DNA of 6,508 nt from an uncultured Bacilli bacterium. Lineage in GTDB: Bacteria > Bacillota_I > Bacilli_A > RF39 > UBA660. The notes below the pieces were generated by a model. It saw only the letters and a program-made list of their open reading frames with translations. It was not told the DNA's origin and did no database searches. Location: NCBI GenBank assembly GCA_944331815.1, contig CALVIQ010000061.1, positions 1 to 6,508 on the forward strand. Direction: 5' to 3'. Position 1 is the stretch's first letter. The number at the start of each line of letters is the position of its first letter. Shown here piece after piece: positions 1-6,508 of this stretch. The translations under genes were made by a program, and so were the position numbers.

Positions 1-127
1 TAGCTTCCAGTATTACAAAAAATGAATCATTTTTATTACCATTTTCCATAATAAATTAAATTTTGATTTTAAAGGCATTATGGGGCGAATTTTATTTCTT
101 TTGGTATAAATCCCTTATTGCGCCCCA
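1..127. repeat. Left copy of 127-bp terminal direct repeat (circularity overlap)
   Basis: These 127 bases are identical to the last 127 bases of the window (6382-6508). The repeat cuts through the replication gene: bases 1-49 are a second copy of the codons for its first 16 residues on the minus strand, and the rest is its upstream region. A perfect repeat of 127 bp at the two ends of a contig is what a de Bruijn assembler using a 127-base k-mer leaves on a circular molecule. I read it as an assembly overlap, not a biological repeat. The unique genome would be 6381 bp, a normal inovirus size. A true terminally redundant linear molecule cannot be excluded from sequence alone. Confidence 0.9.
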
Positions 128-188: not shown

Positions 189-250
189 TTTTTGTTTTCT
201 TTTTAGTTCTAACTCTTTATAAATTTTGTTAGAAACTGGTATATAATGCT
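189..250 (-). pseudogene. Fragment of a second replication-gene copy (62-bp duplicate)
   Basis: This stretch matches 6113-6174, inside the replication gene, at 60 of 62 positions (differences at 195 and 204). The last 46 bp (205-250) are identical. Read on the minus strand it encodes HYIPVSNKIYKELELKRKQK, residues 87-106 of the replication protein. It sits directly after the integrase stop codon (249-251) and in the same reading frame. Past the repeat the frame stays open to a TAA at 78-80, but there is no ribosome site, so I do not call a gene. It looks like the remnant of a duplicated or recombined replication gene whose front part was replaced by the integrase. Confidence 0.6.
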
Positions 251-1163
251 ATAATCTAGATAGATTAATCTTTTTGATTAATCTTTTTTGTTCTACCTCG
301 TTTGTATGAACGTAAATATTCATAGTTGTAGAAATATCTGCGTGTCCTAAACGTTCTTGAATTAGCTTAATTTGTGTTTTTTTATTATATAACATTGTCG
401 CATGACTATGTCTAAAATCATGAATTCTAATTTGTTTTACACCAGACTTTTTACAATAAAAGTCTTTTTTTCTATCTAACGTAGTTGTTGCTATAGGCTT
501 ATCGGCTCCAAATAGATAAAAATCTTGATTGAAATTTTCATAATTTTTGCTATAATATTTTATTAGTTTTTTAATTTCAATAATTGTAAATAAGTCTAAT
601 GGTATTATTCTTGTTTTTCCTGATTTAGTTGGTATTGCTTGTCTTTTTCCATTATAAAATTCTTTCGTTAGTGTTTTGCTTATTACTAGACTATTATTTT
701 TAAAATCGGATACTTTAAGAGCTAAAGCTTCTCCTTTTCTAATTCCAGTATAGAATAAGACTGTGAATAGTGTGTGATATATATTGTTATCCACACATTT
801 TATAAATTTTTTAAAATCTTTTTTCAACCATATGTTATTGTCTTTTTTAATTTCATTTTTATTGTAAACTATTCTTCCAACTTCATTAGCAATATTATTT
901 ATACCATATGTTAAATTTAAGTATTTAAAGAATCCATTGCATACAGACATAATTTCGTGATAAAATGAATTACTGTAATTTAATTTTTTTAAATTTAATT
1001 GAAATTCTATAAAATCATTTTTTGTAATTTCAATTATTTTTTTATTACAAAAAAATGGGATAATATAGTTTTTAAATTTTCTTTTTACACTAGAAACAGT
1101 AGTTATTTTATTCTTTAATGATATATAATTAATGTATTTTAAATAAGCTTCTTCTATTGTCAT
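249..1163 (-). CDS. int: Tyrosine recombinase / phage integrase
   Basis: This 304-residue protein of the phage integrase (tyrosine recombinase) family is predicted to integrate and excise the element by conservative site-specific recombination through a covalent 3'-phosphotyrosine. The N-terminal part (about 1-95) looks like the SAM-like core-binding domain. The C-terminal catalytic domain shows the full active-site set: R142 in TGIRKGEALAL, a beta-hairpin lysine near K180-K183 in TKSGKTRIIPL, H248 and R251 in HDFRHSHAT, H274 in RLGHADISTT, and nucleophile Y284. Length is typical for a small integrase of Gram-positive elements. The start ATG at 1163 is preceded by an unusual all-G ribosome site (AAAGGGGGGG) and a consensus promoter. 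The stop abuts a duplicated replication-gene fragment. A role in resolving multimers of the circular form is an alternative to integration. Confidence 0.93.
   Translation of the reverse strand: MTIEEAYLKYINYISLKNKITTVSSVKRKFKNYIIPFFCNKKIIEITKNDFIEFQLNLKKLNYSNSFYHEIMSVCNGFFKYLNLTYGINNIANEVGRIVYNKNEIKKDNNIWLKKDFKKFIKCVDNNIYHTLFTVLFYTGIRKGEALALKVSDFKNNSLVISKTLTKEFYNGKRQAIPTKSGKTRIIPLDLFTIIEIKKLIKYYSKNYENFNQDFYLFGADKPIATTTLDRKKDFYCKKSGVKQIRIHDFRHSHATMLYNKKTQIKLIQERLGHADISTTMNIYVHTNEVEQKRLIKKINLSRL
787..795 (+). other. Perfect DnaA-box sequence inside the integrase gene
   Basis: TTATCCACA, the consensus DnaA binding site, occurs here within the integrase coding region, where it encodes part of CVDNN around residue 125. 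An isolated box inside a gene may be coincidence. It is recorded because a second perfect box lies at the origin-like region, and a 9-base match is not expected to recur by chance in 6.4 kb of such AT-rich DNA. Confidence 0.35.
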
Positions 1164-1457: not shown

Positions 1458-1667
1458 ATGGAAGAAACAGTAACAGCAACAGAAATCACAACTGCCAACA
1501 TTTTTGAACAAGCAGCTGAAACAATGGGCGGATTCATGACTATGACTGGTGATTTCTTCACAGGATTATGGGCTAATCCAATGGGAAAAATTATCATCAC
1601 TTTAGGTCTTGTATCTGGCGGTATTGGATTATGCTATCGTTTATTCTTAAGAAGAAAACACGTATAG
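1458..1667 (+). CDS. Major coat protein (pVIII-like)
   Basis: This 69-residue protein has the filamentous-phage major coat design. It has an acidic, Thr/Glu-rich amphipathic N-terminal half (MEETVTATEITTANIFEQAA), a central membrane span (about 44-61, GKIIITLGLVSGGIGLCY), and a short basic tail RLFLRRKHV that would face the packaged DNA. No cleavable signal peptide is visible, as in phage Pf3 coat protein, so membrane insertion would be direct (inference). The start at 1458 is chosen because a strong ribosome site (GAGGAGG) lies just before it. An upstream in-frame ATG at 1410 would precede the predicted transcription start. By hand count the gene is about 38% GC with C-ending codons, far above its neighbours, as expected for the most highly expressed protein. 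A hairpin terminator follows directly. Confidence 0.85.
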   Translation: MEETVTATEITTANIFEQAAETMGGFMTMTGDFFTGLWANPMGKIIITLGLVSGGIGLCYRLFLRRKHV

Positions 1668-1716: not shown

Positions 1717-1830
1717 ATGTTAAAAAAAATATTAATTTATATAGAGTGGGGGGTGTGTGATTTAAATGAAATCGTTGAAGATAAAGAGCTATTTAATTGG
1801 TTTTATTGTAGTGATGATTTCGCTATTTAG
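1717..1830 (+). CDS. Possible 37-residue leader peptide overlapping the pIII-like gene
   Basis: The open frame MLKKILIYIEWGVCDLNEIV... has a textbook ribosome site (GGAGGAAAT) directly before its ATG, better than that of the large gene it overlaps. It runs 65 bp into the pIII-like gene in another frame. The peptide has no membrane segment or motif I recognise. It could be a small protein, or a leader whose translation opens the ribosome site of the pIII-like gene. The evidence is the ribosome site alone. Confidence 0.35.
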   Translation: MLKKILIYIEWGVCDLNEIVEDKELFNWFYCSDDFAI

Positions 1831-3559
1831 TTTTAATAATAATGCTTATGCTTATGAAGTGGATTTAAATGCAGATATAAACTATTATATAAATGATTTA
1901 AAAGAAACTCACGACAAATATCCAAATGGTTTAAATATAAATGATACTTTAGATTTAATAATTAGTAAATTAAAAAATAATGATAATTTTGATTATCTTA
2001 TAGTAAATATTAATAAAGATTTTAATATATATGCAATTCCAAAAAATTTAAATATTAACACAATTTGGAAAAGAACTTACGTTAATAAAAAATGGTATTA
2101 CGAATTAGAAATTAATCCTAATATTTTAGATAATAATTGTAAAAAATTTAATATTAGATTTTTATTTAATAATGATACAAATTCTATAGAATTTAAAGAT
2201 TTATCTAATAATAACTCAAGTTTAGAAGAATATTTAAATTATATTGATAATTGGTTAAAAAATCCTAATTATCCTGATTTTTGGTATACAACGGACGCTT
2301 TTTTAGGTGGTTTTGAAAGCACAGGAACTTTAAATGTTGATACTATAATTTATGATACTAATTCAAATATCTCATTTAATAATGTTGACTCATCAGGTAA
2401 TGTTTTAAATTTGTCTATTAACGGAACTTTATTAGAAAATGGCACGAAGTTACCTACTTTTGTAAAATATTATAATAGAATAAAAATAACAAAAACTTAC
2501 GCTAATGATTTAGAGGGAAACGATTTATATAATATCAGAGCTGATTTTGCTGATATATACGACGAATCATATACATATCAATTTAAAACTGATTTTTTTA
2601 ATGATTGGGTAGATATAACTGAAAATATCCAAACAGCAGCACAAGAGGGATTTTATATATATGATTATTCTTGTTACTATAATACAAATATTCGTTTTCG
2701 AGTATTAGATAGTAATGGCGAAGTATTAGATGAAAATTCAATAAATGTATCAGAATTAAATAATTTCGGAATGCAAATATCTCATAATTTCGCAACTGAT
2801 TTAGAAGGTAGAGATATATATGCAATAACAATTGATTTAAGAAATTGTTGGGAAAATAGTTATAAATATCAATATTCATATGATAATAAAAATTTTTATA
2901 ATATGGACGTTTCAGAAGAAAATAAGATATATTATTTAAATCATGGAATAAATATTCCAATTTATTTTCAAATATTAGATAGTAATAATAATATTTTATG
3001 GAATACAAAATATAATGGTCCCTTTGATAATATTAATAAAAATATAGAGTTAAAAGAATTTACTGGAACTGATCAATCTGGGAATAAATTTATAGGATTT
3101 GAAGCTGATTTATCAGATTATACACAATTCAGCGATATTTATAATTTTAAAGTGATTATTAATGGAATTCAGCAAGATTTAAAAGACGTTATTGCATGGA
3201 ATATACGTGAAAATCAATTTGATAATTATAATATTGATTTTGAGCTATATTTAGACGAATTATTAATTGAAAAATTTAATTATAATCCTAAACTAGGATT
3301 TGATTCTTTTGATGATAAATACAATGATATTGTTAATAATGAAATGGAAGAAGAAATTAATAATGGCGATTATACAAGTATTGATGGTATATTTGAAGCT
3401 GTAAAATCATTTATTAACGCTATAAGTGATTTTATAAACTCATTTTTTAAATTGATAATGGTATTTTTTAATAGATTGAATTTATGGATAAAAAGTGCAG
3501 TTATTGGGATATTTATTGTAATGGTTGTATGTAGGATTATTAAGGCGGTGAGAAAGTGA
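1766..3559 (+). CDS. Adsorption / minor tip protein (pIII-like), membrane anchored
   Basis: This 597-residue secreted protein has the overall design of filamentous-phage pIII: N-terminal signal peptide, large exported region, C-terminal membrane anchor. The signal peptide is clear (KIKSYL, hydrophobic core IGFIVVMISLF, AYA site, cleavage after about residue 29). The exported part is rich in Asn, Asp and aromatic residues. Three consecutive related segments of about 80-90 residues (about 238-327, 335-418, 426-507) share a D-x-x-G-[NR] turn and a following acidic, aromatic strand pattern. Residues 558-570 and a span at about 577-592 form the membrane end, followed by KAVRK. The gene lies between coat and assembly genes, as gene III does. 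ATG 1766 is the first possible start, with TAA directly before it; its ribosome site is a GGGGGG run. No sequence family is recognised, so function rests on architecture and position. Confidence 0.75.
   Translation: MKSLKIKSYLIGFIVVMISLFSFNNNAYAYEVDLNADINYYINDLKETHDKYPNGLNINDTLDLIISKLKNNDNFDYLIVNINKDFNIYAIPKNLNINTIWKRTYVNKKWYYELEINPNILDNNCKKFNIRFLFNNDTNSIEFKDLSNNNSSLEEYLNYIDNWLKNPNYPDFWYTTDAFLGGFESTGTLNVDTIIYDTNSNISFNNVDSSGNVLNLSINGTLLENGTKLPTFVKYYNRIKITKTYANDLEGNDLYNIRADFADIYDESYTYQFKTDFFNDWVDITENIQTAAQEGFYIYDYSCYYNTNIRFRVLDSNGEVLDENSINVSELNNFGMQISHNFATDLEGRDIYAITIDLRNCWENSYKYQYSYDNKNFYNMDVSEENKIYYLNHGINIPIYFQILDSNNNILWNTKYNGPFDNINKNIELKEFTGTDQSGNKFIGFEADLSDYTQFSDIYNFKVIINGIQQDLKDVIAWNIRENQFDNYNIDFELYLDELLIEKFNYNPKLGFDSFDDKYNDIVNNEMEEEINNGDYTSIDGIFEAVKSFINAISDFINSFFKLIMVFFNRLNLWIKSAVIGIFIVMVVCRIIKAVRK
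2477..3286 (+). repeat. Three tandem diverged domain repeats within the pIII-like gene
   Basis: The encoded protein repeats a pattern three times. The matching starts are NDLEGNDLYNIRADF, TDLEGRDIYAITIDL and TDQSGNKFIGFEADL. Each is followed by an aromatic segment (YTYQFKTD, YKYQYSYD, YNFKVIIN) and later a closing strand (IRFRVLDSNGEVL, IYFQILDSNNNIL, IDFELYLDELLIE). Similarity is at protein level and fades in the third copy. The alternation suggests beta-sandwich modules, possibly receptor-binding domains built by ancient tandem duplication. Confidence 0.6.
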
Positions 3560-3735
3560 AAGAATTATGGGATAATTTCACACAAGCTCTTGAAACAATA
3601 AAGAATTTAGTTTTTGGATTTATTGATATTGTAGGTCTGATTTTTAGTTTTATACCTAGTCCATTTTCTGAAATTTTGGGAATTGCATCTATAGTGATAA
3701 TTGCATTGATAGTTGCTAAGATAGTGAGGGGATAA
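3556..3735 (+). CDS. Small membrane protein, likely minor virion protein (59 aa)
   Basis: This gene starts with GTG, overlapping the TGA stop of the pIII-like gene by four bases (GTGA), which implies translational coupling. A ribosome site AAGGCGGTGAG lies just upstream. The protein begins KELWDNFTQALETIKNLVFG and has two hydrophobic stretches (about 20-34 and 38-56) with a short basic end AKIVRG. Its position right after the adsorption protein matches gene VI of Ff phages, whose product joins pIII at the virion tip. That comparison is positional only; no sequence family is recognised. Confidence 0.7.
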   Translation: MKELWDNFTQALETIKNLVFGFIDIVGLIFSFIPSPFSEILGIASIVIIALIVAKIVRG

Positions 3736-3736
3736 A

Positions 3737-3928
3737 ATGTATGAGATAATAGAAAAATTATTAATATTATGGGCAGATACAATAAATAAAATATTTTTAT
3801 TTGAGATACAATTTGATTCTAATGAATATATACCAATAGGTAAAATTATAACAGCTTTTATTTTCATTTCTTTAGTAATTTATTTTATATTAGACGCTAT
3901 GGGGATTTTAGATAATGAGGGAGAGTGA
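3737..3928 (+). CDS. Small membrane protein (63 aa)
   Basis: The gene begins one base after the preceding stop, with GAGGGG as ribosome site. The protein has an amphipathic N-terminal part (MYEIIEKLLILWADTINK), a central polar stretch and one clear membrane span at about 34-53 (IGKIITAFIFISLVIYFIL), ending in an acidic tail DNEGE. It lies in an unbroken run of small membrane-protein genes between the adsorption protein and the assembly ATPase. A minor coat or assembly role is likely from this context, but I do not recognise the family. Confidence 0.65.
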   Translation: MYEIIEKLLILWADTINKIFLFEIQFDSNEYIPIGKIITAFIFISLVIYFILDAMGILDNEGE

Positions 3929-3934
3929 TAATTA

Positions 3935-4102
3935 ATGGAATTTATATATAATTTTTGGGTAGAAATGTTACCTATGTGTACTGGGTATGAATTTATATAT
4001 GTATTTTTAACAATATTGACATTTTTGGCTTTAATTGAGGCAGTAATTGTATTACCAGGAACGTTATTATTTGGAGGTACTAACAAGATATGGAACGATT
4101 AA
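3935..4102 (+). CDS. Small membrane protein (55 aa)
   Basis: The ATG at 3935 follows the previous stop by six bases and has GAGGGAGAG as ribosome site, located in the end of the previous gene. The protein has a short N-terminal segment (MEFIYNFWVEML), one long hydrophobic span at about 19-42 (through YVFLTILTFLALIEAVIVL) and a short polar end NKIWND. It overlaps the next gene by 13 bases, suggesting coupled translation. Probably a minor virion or assembly membrane protein; no family recognised. Confidence 0.65.
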   Translation: MEFIYNFWVEMLPMCTGYEFIYVFLTILTFLALIEAVIVLPGTLLFGGTNKIWND

Positions 4103-4323
4103 TTGATATTACATTATTTTTTATAATAAAAGTACCACAATTTGATGAATTAATTACTACTTTAGGATTAAATTTAGATAAGAGCAGTGATATGTATTTA
4201 ACTACGTTAATTTTAGCAAATATTTTTGCTTATTTAGTAATATATTTATTCATTATGTTATTATTGAAAATCTTAAAGAAATTATTTAGAAAAAGAAGAT
4301 ATTTTAGTAATAGGAGGTATTAA
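4090..4323 (+). CDS. Small membrane protein with basic tail (77 aa)
   Basis: The gene overlaps its upstream neighbour by 13 bases; the ribosome site GGAGGT lies about 12 nt before the ATG. A hydrophobic N-terminus (DITLFFIIKV) is followed by a soluble stretch (16-36), a strong membrane span (about 37-60, MYLTTLILANIFAYLVIYLF onward) and a strongly basic end KILKKLFRKRRYFSNRRY. A basic cytoplasmic tail after one span is a coat-protein-like layout, so this could be a minor coat protein touching DNA, or an assembly factor. No family is recognised. Its stop shares one base with the next start (TAATG). Confidence 0.65.
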   Translation: MERLIDITLFFIIKVPQFDELITTLGLNLDKSSDMYLTTLILANIFAYLVIYLFIMLLLKILKKLFRKRRYFSNRRY

Positions 4324-4499
4324 TGGCAATTTTAATTTTAGAAATAATTTTAATAGTAATTTTAGTTTTTATGGTGGATTTATTTACTTATAAATGGATA
4401 CGTAGATTAGACAAAAAAGAGCGTGAAAAATTGGCTAAAAAAGAAACTGAATACTTAAAAAAACTATGGGCTGAATGGGACAAAAATAAAAATGTTTAA
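4323..4499 (+). CDS. Small membrane-anchored charged protein (58 aa)
   Basis: A near-perfect AGGAGGT ribosome site lies five bases before the ATG, which overlaps the previous stop by one base. The protein has one N-terminal membrane span (about 2-22, AILILEIILIVILVFMVDLF) and a highly charged, probably helical cytoplasmic half (RRLDKKEREKLAKKETEYLKK, then LWAEWDKNKNV). It overlaps the assembly ATPase gene by eight bases. The tight coupling and the coiled-coil-like tail suggest a partner of the ATPase at the membrane assembly site; this is inference. Confidence 0.65.
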   Translation: MAILILEIILIVILVFMVDLFTYKWIRRLDKKEREKLAKKETEYLKKLWAEWDKNKNV

Positions 4500-5157
4500 A
4501 GTATTATTAATTTTAGTTTTTTTGTTGATAAAAACGTATTTTTCATTTAAAAAAGCAGAGAAAATAATATGTCGTCCACCTAATAAATTTACACAAGTTT
4601 TTGCCCCACCCGGTACTGGTAAAACTACATTAGCAGCATTATTGGTAAAACAATGTTTAGAAAAAGGAAAAGACGTATATTCAAACGTTCCTATAATTGG
4701 AGCTAAAAAGCTAGATTTAAAAGATTTAGGAACATATTTATTAGAAGATTGTGTTGTTATTATTGATGAGGCTGGAAGTGAATTATCAAATCGTAATTGG
4801 ATGAGAAATTTATCAGACGCACAAGTTAGATTCTTGAAAAAGCATAGACATTATGGAGTTGATTTATGGTTATTTTCTCAAGCATATAATGACGTTGATA
4901 ACAAATTTAGAGAATTAACAACTCAATTAATAATGTTAAAAAAAGCAAAAACACCATTTAAAATAAATGCTTTAGCAATTCGTAAGACTATGGATTTAAT
5001 TGGTGGTCAGATATGTGAATATTTTGAGTGGGATAAAGAGGGAAGTTTTTCATTTTATACACCAAAATTATGGGCATATTTTAATTCATACGATAAAACT
5101 GAAAATTATGAGGTTAAAGAGTTTGAAAGATACACTAAATTAGACACGATTAAGTAA
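4492..5157 (+). CDS. Filamentous-phage assembly ATPase, Zot / pI family
   Basis: This 221-residue P-loop ATPase is predicted to drive virion extrusion through the cell membrane. Walker A is APPGTGKTT (residues 38-46) and Walker B is CVVIIDEAG (87-95). The downstream KKHRHYGVDLWLFSQ segment (116-130) is the usual Zot-family sensor-like region, ending in Gln130. A single membrane span lies at the extreme N-terminus (about 3-18). In Ff pI the ATPase domain comes first and is followed by a span and a periplasmic domain. Here no C-terminal exported domain exists, consistent with a host without an outer membrane and with the lack of a secretin gene. The ATG at 4492 overlaps the previous gene by eight bases. 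It is the last gene of the virion block, with a terminator just beyond. Confidence 0.9.
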   Translation: MFKVLLILVFLLIKTYFSFKKAEKIICRPPNKFTQVFAPPGTGKTTLAALLVKQCLEKGKDVYSNVPIIGAKKLDLKDLGTYLLEDCVVIIDEAGSELSNRNWMRNLSDAQVRFLKKHRHYGVDLWLFSQAYNDVDNKFRELTTQLIMLKKAKTPFKINALAIRKTMDLIGGQICEYFEWDKEGSFSFYTPKLWAYFNSYDKTENYEVKEFERYTKLDTIK

Positions 5158-5170
5158 AAAATTTTCAAAC

Positions 5171-5228
5171 AAAAAAGGGAATTTAATATATATACTAAAG
5201 TATATATATTAAAATTTCCTCTTTTTTT
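5171..5228. terminator. Bidirectional rho-independent terminator between the converging blocks
   Basis: GGAATTTAATATATATAC (5178-5195) pairs with GTATATATATTAAAATTTCC (5200-5219), with small bulges and a TAAA loop. The stem is flanked by an A-run (5171-5176) and a T-run (5222-5228), so it can terminate in both directions. It begins 13 bp after the assembly ATPase stop and ends the plus-strand virion block. Confidence 0.85.
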
Positions 5229-5238
5229 GTTGTGTTGT

Positions 5239-5264
5239 GGGTTGGGGTCTTGGAGGGGAGCGGG
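5239..5264 (+). other. Putative G-quadruplex tract
   Basis: Four G-runs, GGG (5239-5241), GGGG (5244-5247), GGGG (5255-5258) and GGG (5262-5264), are separated by loops of 2, 7 and 3 bases. This satisfies the usual G3+/loop 1-7 rule on the plus strand. The surrounding 40 bases are strongly G/T- then G/A-rich, in sharp contrast to the rest of the genome. It lies between two terminators, outside any gene. In a single-stranded plus genome it could fold and serve as a packaging or replication signal; that role is inference. Confidence 0.6.
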
Positions 5265-5269
5265 AGAAG

Positions 5270-5297
5270 AAAAAAAGAAACGTCATTAAACGTTTTC
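5270..5297 (-). terminator. Terminator of the minus-strand small-gene operon
   Basis: Read on the minus strand, GAAAACG and CGTTTC (complements of 5291-5297 and 5277-5282) form a short stem with one bulge and an 8-base loop, followed by seven T residues. The stop codon of the last minus-strand gene (5286-5288) lies in the loop. The stem is weak, but the bidirectional terminator at 5171-5228 backs it up. Confidence 0.55.
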
Positions 5298-5501
5298 TTT
5301 TCTACAAAATACTTTTTTTTCGTCAAATATTGCTATTTCGTGAGTTTTTTCATCGTAAACAATATAAACTAAATCTTTCTTATCGTTTATTTTGATTAAA
5401 TTATCGTCTATTAGTTCGATTGATAAATTATCTATTAATTTTGGATAATTGTTTTTTAAATATTCTAATATTTTAAATTGTGCTATTGTTTTTGCTCTCA
5501 T
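5286..5501 (-). CDS. Hypothetical small protein (71 aa), alpha then beta pattern
   Basis: The start at 5501 is chosen because a strong GGAGGAAAACT ribosome site precedes it; the frame is open further upstream to 5633 but that part overlaps the neighbouring gene and has no such site. The protein starts with a helix (MRAKTIAQFKILEYLKNN) and continues with alternating strands (LSIELID, NLIKIND, DLVYIVYD, HEIAIFD). There is no membrane segment. I do not recognise a family. As the only soluble, beta-rich small protein in the genome it is the least unlikely candidate for a single-stranded DNA-binding (pV-like) protein, but no motif supports that. It overlaps the preceding gene by 29 bases. Confidence 0.65.
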   Translation of the reverse strand: MRAKTIAQFKILEYLKNNYPKLIDNLSIELIDDNLIKINDKKDLVYIVYDEKTHEIAIFDEKKVFCRKENV

Positions 5502-5682
5502 AGTTTTCCTCCTTTTTTTTATTATATATTTTCGTAAATTCGCAATCATTGTAGAATCTACACGTCCAGCAAGTGCATTGTGCTTTTTTCTTGTAGTTTT
5601 TTTTACAATAGTTTTCTTCAATAATTTTATCAAATGCTTTGGATATTGTTATTGCGAAAAATATGCCTAGTACTATATTCAT
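5473..5682 (-). CDS. Small membrane-anchored Cys-cluster protein (69 aa)
   Basis: The ATG at 5682 has a GGAGGAAGATTA ribosome site and overlaps the preceding stop by one base (TAATG). The protein begins with a short hydrophobic segment (MNIVLGIFFAITISKAF) and then carries five Cys residues (26, 36, 38, 41, 47) in the pattern C-x9-C-x-C-x2-C-x5-C, which could bind a metal such as zinc or form disulfides if exported. The tail is Lys/Asn/Glu-rich. It is co-oriented with the replication gene and lies in a three-gene overlapping cluster. Function unknown. Confidence 0.65.
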   Translation of the reverse strand: MNIVLGIFFAITISKAFDKIIEENYCKKNYKKKAQCTCWTCRFYNDCEFTKIYNKKKEENYESKNNSTI

Positions 5683-5870
5683 TAATCTTCCTCCGTTCTT
5701 TTTTTTATTTTTCCTTTTTTTATTAAAGATTCATATCTTTGTTGAAGATAAAATTTAGGCACAAAATTTTCTAATAATGTAAATGGTACAAAATAATAAA
5801 AATTAATAAATGTTTCATCATCATCTAGTTTTTTAATTAACTCAATATACAATTTGCTTTGATTTTTCAT
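5682..5870 (-). CDS. Hypothetical small protein (62 aa)
   Basis: The start ATG at 5870 is preceded by GGAAGTGAAAA, a moderate ribosome site. The protein is mostly helical, with an aromatic middle (FINFYYFVPFTLLENFVPKFY) and charged ends (KKGKIKKRTEED). It is the first gene of the three-gene cluster downstream of the origin-like region and shares a base with the next start. No domain is recognised. Expression probably depends on readthrough from the replication gene or on a promoter in the AT-rich tract 5900-5960, which I cannot pin down. Confidence 0.6.
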   Translation of the reverse strand: MKNQSKLYIELIKKLDDDETFINFYYFVPFTLLENFVPKFYLQQRYESLIKKGKIKKRTEED

Positions 5871-5922
5871 TTTTTCACTTCCATTTCTAAAAATTGAATT
5901 TAATATTCCTTTTTTATATATT

Positions 5923-5955
5923 ATTTTAAATTTATTTTAAATTTATTTTAAATTT
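5923..5955. repeat. Three tandem AT-rich 11-mers (candidate DNA unwinding element)
   Basis: ATTTTAAATTT is repeated three times without a gap at 5923, 5934 and 5945, with a partial fourth copy (ATTTTA) at 5956. The tract contains no G or C. Its position next to the iterons fits the melting region of an iteron origin. It lies between the replication gene and the small-gene cluster, so it may also hold a minus-strand promoter. Confidence 0.7.
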
Positions 5956-5976
5956 ATTTTATATACATATATAGGG

Positions 5977-6035
5977 ACTGTCATTTTGACAGTTTAGGCT
6001 GTCATTTTGACAGTATCGACTGTCATTTTGACTGT
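5977..6035. repeat. Three origin iterons ACTGTCATTTTGACAGT, 21-bp period
   Basis: Copies lie at 5977-5993, 5998-6014 and 6019-6035. Each is itself an inverted repeat, ACTGTCA-TTT-TGACAGT. Copy 2 begins with G, and copy 3 has TGACTGT instead of TGACAGT, where it merges into the DnaA box. The exact 21-bp spacing (two helical turns) places all sites on one face of the helix, as expected for cooperative binding of a replication initiator. In single-stranded DNA each copy could form a 6-7 bp hairpin. Confidence 0.85.
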
Positions 6036-6041
6036 GGATAA
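6033..6041 (-). other. Perfect DnaA box at the origin
   Basis: TTATCCACA on the minus strand, the full DnaA consensus. It overlaps the end of the third iteron and lies two bases from the replication-gene stop codon. It indicates recruitment of the host DnaA initiator. Confidence 0.75.
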
Positions 6042-6043
6042 CT

Positions 6044-6430
6044 TTACCTATCATTTAGCCAATCATAGTCTAAAATTTCGAATTCTTCTTTTTTCTTTTT
6101 TAGTTCTAATTCTTTTTGCTTTCTTTTCAGTTCTAACTCTTTATAAATTTTGTTAGAAACTGGTATATAATGCTTTTCATTATTTTCAACAAATAAAGAT
6201 ATGTAATTTTTATCTGTAAGTTGTTTTATATTTCTATAAAATTGTTTTTCAGATATATTTGACATTTCCATTAATTCTTTGTTTGACCTAAAGCAATATC
6301 CTTTTTCATTGTTTGAAGAAAAGCAAATACAAGCATACAAAATTTTTGCACTATTTGTTATTGATTTACTTTTTAAAATACTAGCTTCCAGTATTACAAA
6401 AAATGAATCATTTTTATTACCATTTTCCAT
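6044..6430 (-). CDS. Winged-helix replication initiator-like protein (Rep)
   Basis: This 128-residue protein has an N-terminal winged helix-turn-helix of the kind found at the front of many Gram-positive plasmid Rep and phage replisome-organiser proteins. SFFVILEASILKSKSITNSA and the following helix lead to a recognition region about 50-75 (SNKELMEMSNISEKQFYRNI) and the strand KNYISLFV. The rest is a highly charged helix with a 9-residue tandem repeat (KELELKRKQ, KELELKKKK) and a terminal EILDYDWLND motif. It is shorter than two-domain iteron Reps. ATG 6430 is the first possible start (in-frame stop seven codons or fewer upstream) but has no visible ribosome site, implying low expression. The gene directly adjoins iterons and a DnaA box, which it probably binds. 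A transcription regulator is the main alternative. It crosses the contig junction. Confidence 0.75.
   Translation of the reverse strand: MENGNKNDSFFVILEASILKSKSITNSAKILYACICFSSNNEKGYCFRSNKELMEMSNISEKQFYRNIKQLTDKNYISLFVENNEKHYIPVSNKIYKELELKRKQKELELKKKKEEFEILDYDWLNDR
6113..6174 (-). repeat. 62-bp segment of rep duplicated beside the integrase
   Basis: This stretch of the replication gene (residues 87-106) recurs at 189-250 with two mismatches. Around the circle the two direct copies are offset by 457 bp and bracket the replication-gene promoter and its N-terminal coding part. Homologous recombination between them would delete that segment. Confidence 0.85.
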
Positions 6431-6508
6431 AATAAATTAAATTTTGATTTTAAAGGCATTATGGGGCGAATTTTATTTCTTTTGGTATAAATCCCTTATT
6501 GCGCCCCA
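6382..6508. repeat. Right copy of 127-bp terminal direct repeat
   Basis: Identical to bases 1-127. This copy carries the intact 5' end of the replication gene (down from 6430) and its upstream region. The genome should be closed by joining base 6381 to base 1. Confidence 0.9.

Follow-up and report, generated by a model that had tools for sequence, protein, structure and literature searches.

A nicking initiator is generally regarded as a requirement of filamentous phages, which would use it to copy the genome and also to make the single strand that is extruded. Inovirus replication modules are exchanged and comprise HUH types, Rep_trans, which is used by many, and the transposases of the vespertilioviruses, which are filamentous phages without a Rep that replicate by transposition with IS3 or IS30 transposases (PMC6668415, in its available part), and the replication families are broadly shared across candidate inovirus families (PMC6813254, likewise available in part). 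The earlier note on this DNA had given rolling-circle replication with an HUH endonuclease as the norm for filamentous phages; members without an HUH initiator are already known, namely the many phages with Rep_trans and the transposing vespertilioviruses described in the available text of PMC6668415. Among plasmids and related elements, the RepA_N initiators, such as the solved structures 4pt7 and 4pta, act with iterons that are mostly semi-palindromic direct repeats around an A-tract, and a RepA_N initiator with semi-palindromic iterons is also found in the PLE of Vibrio cholerae, a phage-related integrated element (PMC7145576, in the sections available). In addition, the Rep of plasmid pPR9 has an N-terminus of the HTH_36 type, and a mini-replicon of this plasmid replicates (PMC5703833, available in part). 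In the open literature, with supplementary tables and subscription papers outside the scope, no filamentous phage or inovirus with theta, iteron or DnaA-type replication was found. Here we describe a lineage of inoviruses in which an iteron replicon seems to have taken the place of the rolling-circle module and to have been retained.

The stretch of DNA analysed here (the window, 6,508 nucleotides) is a circular contig of 6381 bp plus assembler overlap, bases 1-127 being an exact copy of 6382..6508, which gives a terminal overlap of 127 bp. The size of the circle falls inside the range of 5.5-10.6 kb given for the circular genomes of Inoviridae/Tubulavirales (PMC8491893, in the part available), and its GC content is 24%. 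A tyrosine integrase is encoded on the minus strand at 249..1163 (Pfam PF00589, Phage_integrase, 1.4e-24), and the morphogenesis operon is on the plus strand, with a 69-aa major coat-like protein carrying a hydrophobic stretch and a basic C-terminus (1458..1667), a large surface protein of 597 aa with hydrophobic ends, whose position is that of a pIII-like protein (1766..3559), five small membrane-type ORFs (3556..4499), these three assignments being read from the sequence, and a zot/pI-like assembly ATPase (4492..5157). The Zot protein matched Pfam PF05707 at 31.6 bits in comparison to a cut-off of 20.3 (E 1.4e-7) and phrog_197 at 5.3e-12, and it groups with inovirus records in the Zot tree, while the coat-like and surface ORFs, which fit by size and place, gave no confident family match in Pfam or PHROGs. 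Past zot, the minus strand carries a 71-aa protein (5286..5501), a 69-aa ORF with no family match in the profile searches (5473..5682), a 62-aa ORF with no match in Pfam or PHROGs (5682..5870), and rep (6044..6430). A G-rich tract, GGGTTGGGGTCTTGGAGGGGAGCGGG, with quadruplex-like spacing is located at 5239-5264 and is nearly unchanged in the relative L005.

This relative is integrated in a metagenome-assembled genome labelled uncultured Bacilli bacterium, and it contains twice an 18-bp att core, one copy lying within a tRNA-His gene. Both copies are identical to the attP core of the window (109..126), where the two phage arms are joined, and the window is thus the circular form. Between the window and L005, the dN/dS of rep was 0.11, that of int 0.07, that of zot 0.20, that of the 71-aa gene about 0.08 and that of the large surface gene 0.55. 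Purifying selection acts on zot, rep and the 71-aa gene (dN/dS about 0.06-0.20), and zot is intact in four relatives at 48-86% identity to the window. A near-identical direct repeat of 62 bp, of which 46 bp are exact in the window, was also observed at 189-250 and 6113-6174 of the window and at 6974-7035 and 1477-1538 of L005. In both it is a piece of the rep coding sequence placed a second time between the integrase stop and attP, perhaps as a scar of module exchange or as an arm site for the integrase.

The region directly after the rep stop codon (5910-6041) carries an AT-only run, iterons and a DnaA box. Three 21-bp iterons occupy 5978..6040, with CTGTCATTTTGACAG starting at 5978 and again at 5999 and CTGTCATTTTGACTG at 6020, so that the spacing is exactly 21 bp, and each contains the 15-bp dyad CTGTCA-TTT-TGACAG, the third copy ending in TGACTG; the same array is present in L005 from 1616 onward. 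Three dyad units at 20-23 bp as good as these were found in 0 of 1000 dinucleotide shuffles of 5601-6381, none of 100 dinucleotide shuffles of the whole circle matched the array, and the composition-weighted iteron score was 58.9 in comparison to a maximum of 29.2 over 200 shuffles. The array adjoins an AT-only run of 56 bp (5910..5965), a candidate unwinding element which contains three AT 11-mers in register starting at 5921, 5932 and 5943, and which is the longest such run in the window, the second longest having 25 bp; 0 of 200 shuffles reach the 56-bp run. A perfect DnaA box, TTATCCACA, without mismatch, lies on the minus strand at 6033..6041 and overlaps the end of the third iteron. Perfect TTATNCACA occurs three times in the window in comparison to 0.45 expected, a count reached by 3 of 200 shuffles, and the other two occurrences (787 and 3118) are within genes. 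When an iteron replicon was looked for as at least three direct repeats about two helical turns apart beside rep, this arrangement was present. The AT-only 11-mers, the three iterons at 21 bp and the perfect DnaA box beside a winged-helix Rep gene, which the earlier note had reported, were therefore borne out by the sequence, the shuffles and Pfam, with the correction that the AT stretch begins at 5910 and not at 5923.

The 128-aa Rep matched Pfam HTH_36 (PF13730) at 35.0 bits in comparison to a cut-off of 25 (E 1.3e-8), and the Reps of L005, L034 and L052 were also above the cut-off with 32.4, 50.2 and 39.1 bits, respectively. Its PHROG matches were replication initiation and DnaD-like families (best 9.6e-11), and its C-terminal DWLN motif is conserved. 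The AlphaFold model, made from an alignment of nine sequences, is a winged helix with a mean pLDDT of 71. The fold comparisons by Foldseek and VIA include the RepA_N initiators 4pt7 and 4pta together with 4pql and 5kbj of the same family, although none of the Foldseek rows reaches E 0.001 and the best of them include partition and transcription proteins; winged-helix folds are common. Pfam RepA_N (PF06970) was absent among the Rep families at E<=1, and RepA_N did not come up for Rep when solved structures were searched by sequence, which was not counted as evidence against RepA_N. Small chromosomal islands (L011, L012, L013 and L018) were also noticed to encode short HTH_36 proteins, 114-141 aa long and with a DYDW or DYNW motif at the end, close to where a single conserved HTH gene ends; these are a possible source of the replicon or possible relics of it.

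For rolling-circle initiators, the ten window proteins showed no HUH or Rep_trans family in Pfam or PHROGs at E<=1, three further small ORFs showed no rolling-circle family in Pfam at E<=0.1, and no H-U-H, H-U-Q or Q-U-H triplet (U being V, I, L, M, F, Y, W, C, T or A) was present in any window ORF of at least 30 aa. No rolling-circle family was matched by ten proteins of L005, L034 and L052, nor was any transposase matched among the window proteins in Pfam or PHROGs. Because Pfam found rolling-circle initiators in 15 relatives, the profile test is able to detect them. The predicted model of the 71-aa protein has two helices followed by five strands with a mean pLDDT of 83, and its fold search returned no confident match, the weak ones, LolA and frataxin at E of at least 0.09, being set aside. 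A hidden HUH domain in Rep or in the 71-aa protein was considered and rejected on the motif, family and model evidence. The earlier claim that no encoded protein has an HUH motif pair thus agrees with the triplet scan and with Pfam and PHROGs. Of the follow-up that the earlier note had proposed, the profile search found HTH_36 and neither RepA_N nor rolling-circle families, and structure prediction for the 128- and 71-residue proteins gave a winged helix and a two-helix, five-strand fold, respectively, with no HUH.

To place the window among its relatives, loci with Zot were collected from genomes and phage records. L005 was reached through a Rep search; Zot searches of the genomes around its host gave matches in 6 of 193 genomes for the family sample and 10 of 385 for the order sample, the two samples overlapping. 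Of 56 phage records with a Zot match, 11 were examined (L002-L004 and L059-L066), and the IMG/VR Zot searches contributed 3 loci. No close relative was found among viral contigs searched with a single Zot, a single Rep or a Rep alignment, and a Zot alignment found two distant relatives there. When 395 genomes from across the class were searched at E<=1e-15, only genome G001 matched, thus the known hosts of the clade come from the family and order samples. In a maximum likelihood tree displayed with midpoint rooting, which comprised 27 Zot proteins and left out the truncated match of G088, the window, L005, L037, L052, L034 and L035 formed one clade with support of 95/95, the tree program warning of long branches elsewhere (L001, L058, L061, L002 and L065). 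The clade is found in one order of Bacilli.

In the window, L005, L034 and L052, the four clade members whose contig includes rep, the gene product is an HTH_36 protein facing zot, that of L005 being 96% identical to the window Rep, and for L035 and L037 rep is not on the contig. Outside the clade, 15 of the 21 rows have a typed rolling-circle initiator (Rep_OBD 6, REP_ORF2-G2P 3, Rep_trans 3, Rep_1 2 and Viral_Rep 1). The six untyped ones are L002, L050, L057, L058, L059 and L062, and L062 has a Rep_trans match under the cut-off (E 0.012). A profile built from the clade Reps and run on the 992 ORFs from 28 loci matched only the four clade proteins, which are themselves in the profile, with no HTH_36 Rep among the remaining 24 loci. 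Several features of individual relatives were recorded along with these results. L059 (MT135313), an inovirus record whose host is given as porcine, has no typable Rep, and carries, besides an ORF with DUF6808, one that is peptidase-like by eye. The rolling-circle relative L054 has, at 8100-8310 between zot and the Rep_OBD gene, a hairpin with TACTACGAC, which resembles a nick site of the pMV158 type. An ORF of about 100 aa before the coat gene in L036 and L053, with no family match, may be a single-strand-binding protein; none was seen in the window, L034 or L035.

The region after zot was then scanned across the relatives for three repeats at 20-23 bp, using a composition-weighted score and 200 shuffles, in 20 regions and subsequently in nine more; this score was used in place of an earlier one, which had picked AT-rich repeats in L034 and L052. 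The results showed that five of the six clade members beat 200 of 200 shuffles, with scores of 58.9 for the window, 58.6 for L005, 59.4 for L035, 51.2 for L037 and 35.0 for L052 in comparison to shuffle maxima of 19-29. The best array of L034 lies between Rep and zot with spacings of 21 and 22; it is reached by 6 of 200 shuffles, which by count is no better than the rolling-circle loci L004 (5) and L061 (6), and it was accepted for its place, spacing and partial dyad only. Among the rolling-circle loci, 1 of 17 regions (15 loci) beat all shuffles, namely L055 with a score of 36.6, and this array is a coding 7-codon (heptad) repeat inside the surface gene. None of the six regions of the six untyped relatives beat all shuffles. 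The iteron sequence varies by lineage (window/L005, L034, L035, L037 and L052), so that four different sequences occur among the five members beyond all shuffles, while the spacing is kept at 21-22; in L035 the repeats show by eye an A-tract and no clear dyad. A constant architecture with changing sequence is expected if binding sites change along with Rep, and we regard it as the strongest evidence that this region is a putative origin.

The longest AT-only run after zot was 31-57 bp in the six clade members, in comparison to 8-28 bp in the 15 rolling-circle loci, for which 16 regions were measured; those of the rolling-circle loci that come from other hosts are richer in GC. Against their own shuffles, the runs of five members were reached by 0-2 of 200 and that of L005 by 19 of 200. 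A perfect DnaA box near the iterons is present in the window and L005 only, the four other members having no perfect box there, and this weakens the DnaA-type origin proposed in the earlier note. In addition, a perfect AT-rich stem of 12-16 bp is located 4-34 nt past zot in all six members. In the window this stem is 14 bp long and begins 24 nt past the zot stop (5182..5213), a candidate terminator and/or packaging hairpin. Across the clade, the stem is beyond 300 of 300 shuffles in five members and reached by 5 of 300 in L052, shows a paired base change in L005 and differs in sequence in L037. In the window and L005 a G/C clamp and a T-run make the stem terminator-like; a role in priming or packaging is a possibility.

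The virion strand of a single-stranded phage tends to be T-rich. The ratio T/(T+A) was calculated at synonymous T/A sites, used in place of simple third-position skew, for zot together with the large surface gene, or for zot only in the case of L037 and L052. For 12 of the 13 rolling-circle relatives the ratio was 0.57-0.90, the exception being L001 with 0.47; L056 had 0.57 (p=0.065), and L055, typed later, had 0.82. The six clade members had 0.23-0.555 and eight host gene sets 0.48-0.64. The Mann-Whitney p-value was 0.0009 for the clade versus the rolling-circle relatives, 0.18 for the clade versus the hosts and 0.0009 for the rolling-circle relatives versus the hosts, these and the following p-values overstating independence in that the members are related. 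With zot alone, the 15 typed relatives differed from the clade with p=0.001, although L001 (0.48) and L060 (0.57) are near or among the upper values of the clade. Within the same order, five rolling-circle phages had 0.64-0.72 in comparison to 0.23-0.56 for the clade, without overlap (p=0.004, or p=0.016 without L005 and L052), and these controls likewise come from bacterial genome contigs. L052 was shifted towards A (0.23), and the untyped L057 (0.51) was also without T excess. Genes on the opposite strand showed T excess on the operon strand (0.61 for the window and 0.59 for L005), in comparison to 0.48 and 0.51 for the operon's own genes, and no strand-wide single-strand signal was therefore concluded. 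Taken at face value, the base signature of a long single-stranded life is missing in the very lineage that has no nicking initiator; this fits the unusual life cycle suggested in the earlier note. A largely dormant, integrated life could have this effect as well, although, as mentioned, the controls of that order come from bacterial genome contigs too.

What the earlier note had read from one sequence, an iteron replicon with no recognisable HUH or Rep_trans initiator, was retained and recurs in the clade. We consider it probable that the element is an integrating filamentous phage whose circle is kept by an iteron replicon that replaced the rolling-circle initiator. The excised circle would be maintained, presumably in theta mode, by this plasmid-type replicon, whose Rep, a predicted winged helix resembling RepA_N and DnaD-like initiators, would bind the three iterons as a dimer, would assist the opening of the neighbouring AT-only run, together with DnaA in the case of the closest relatives, and would recruit the host replisome, perhaps via the DWLN motif. 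The replacement most likely took place in an ancestor of the Bacilli-order clade. Another explanation is that Rep and the iterons serve partition or the control of transcription, as a centromere or an operator, replication being done by something else. The first two Foldseek rows for Rep are the plasmid centromere binder AspA, with TubR also present, and the iterons, downstream of rep and ahead of the next gene, are in a possible place for an operator. We nevertheless consider this improbable: profile and motif searches recognised no other replication gene in the element, the PHROG matches of Rep are replication initiation families, the profile search confined this Rep to the clade, the clade unit sits after zot, where sister phages often have rolling-circle initiators, and the host genomes G001, G011 and G408 gave no Rep_OBD, Rep_trans or REP_ORF2-G2P match. 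Decay of the clade into prophages that lost the initiator and no longer make particles would agree with members known solely as genome contigs or one circular contig, and such dormancy could explain the missing T excess; the purifying selection on zot, rep and the 71-aa gene, the intact zot genes and the existence of a circular form make it very improbable.

The source of any single strand for packaging may be considered separately. Mob_Pre is a family of nicking relaxases, and a host or helper nickase of this kind might act in trans and give rolling-circle single strands, while the iterons maintain the double-stranded form. Two of the three hosts with a zot and HTH_36 rep contig have a Mob_Pre match (G001, partial, and G011), but G408 has none, the three genomes, which are perhaps incomplete, gave no match to a MOB relaxase or to the three rolling-circle families named above, Rep_1 gave no match in the hosts either, though the control for that search was silent, and the clade is without the T excess of most rolling-circle relatives, so we regard trans nicking as rather unlikely. 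RSF1010 replicates by strand displacement, which frees single-stranded circles, and by analogy a nickase-free route to single strands is conceivable. The origin of this plasmid has iterons, and its unwinding exposes stem-loops for priming (PMC4234260, available in part). As an extension of the iteron-replicon reading, we tentatively suggest, as a possibility that we would not yet favour, that the lineage left the rolling-circle life with its ssDNA virion strand, is copied from iterons without a nickase and packages a displaced closed circle, as in RSF1010, or dsDNA, the missing base signature in six members being the trace of this change.

With a clade-stable iteron replicon, the maintenance of the genome would be uncoupled from the production of the strand, and the source of the packaged strand would become a directly testable question, for which the sister rolling-circle phages of the same host order are ready controls. 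These phages (L036, L053, L054, L055 and L056) resemble the window in having Zot/pI, a coat-like ORF, a surface protein and membrane ORFs, in L036, L053 and L054 with the morphogenesis genes in the window's order. They differ in carrying REP_ORF2-G2P or Rep_OBD initiators, in having no noncoding three-iteron array beyond shuffles, and in a higher synonymous T than the clade, for L056 at p=0.065 only. In comparison to the RepA_N theta plasmids pSK41 and pTZ2162, the window has a winged-helix initiator with a predicted fold that may be similar, and the iterons of the window and L005 are likewise direct repeats, each containing a dyad centred on an A/T tract, but Rep has only 128 aa, with no large C-terminal domain and no RepA_N Pfam match, the iterons come after the gene and not inside it as in pSK41, and the carrier is a filamentous phage. 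The N-terminus of the pPR9 Rep, as described in the available part of its source, belongs to HTH_36, the Pfam family that the window Rep also matches. The PLE, as far as the accessible text on it goes, differs in being a satellite of a lytic phage and in depending on that phage for replication, and the same text mentions no genes for filamentous morphogenesis. Like the vespertilioviruses, the window has no rolling-circle Rep, and unlike them it has an iteron replicon and no transposase match. Module swapping among inoviruses, even for transposases, is already known.
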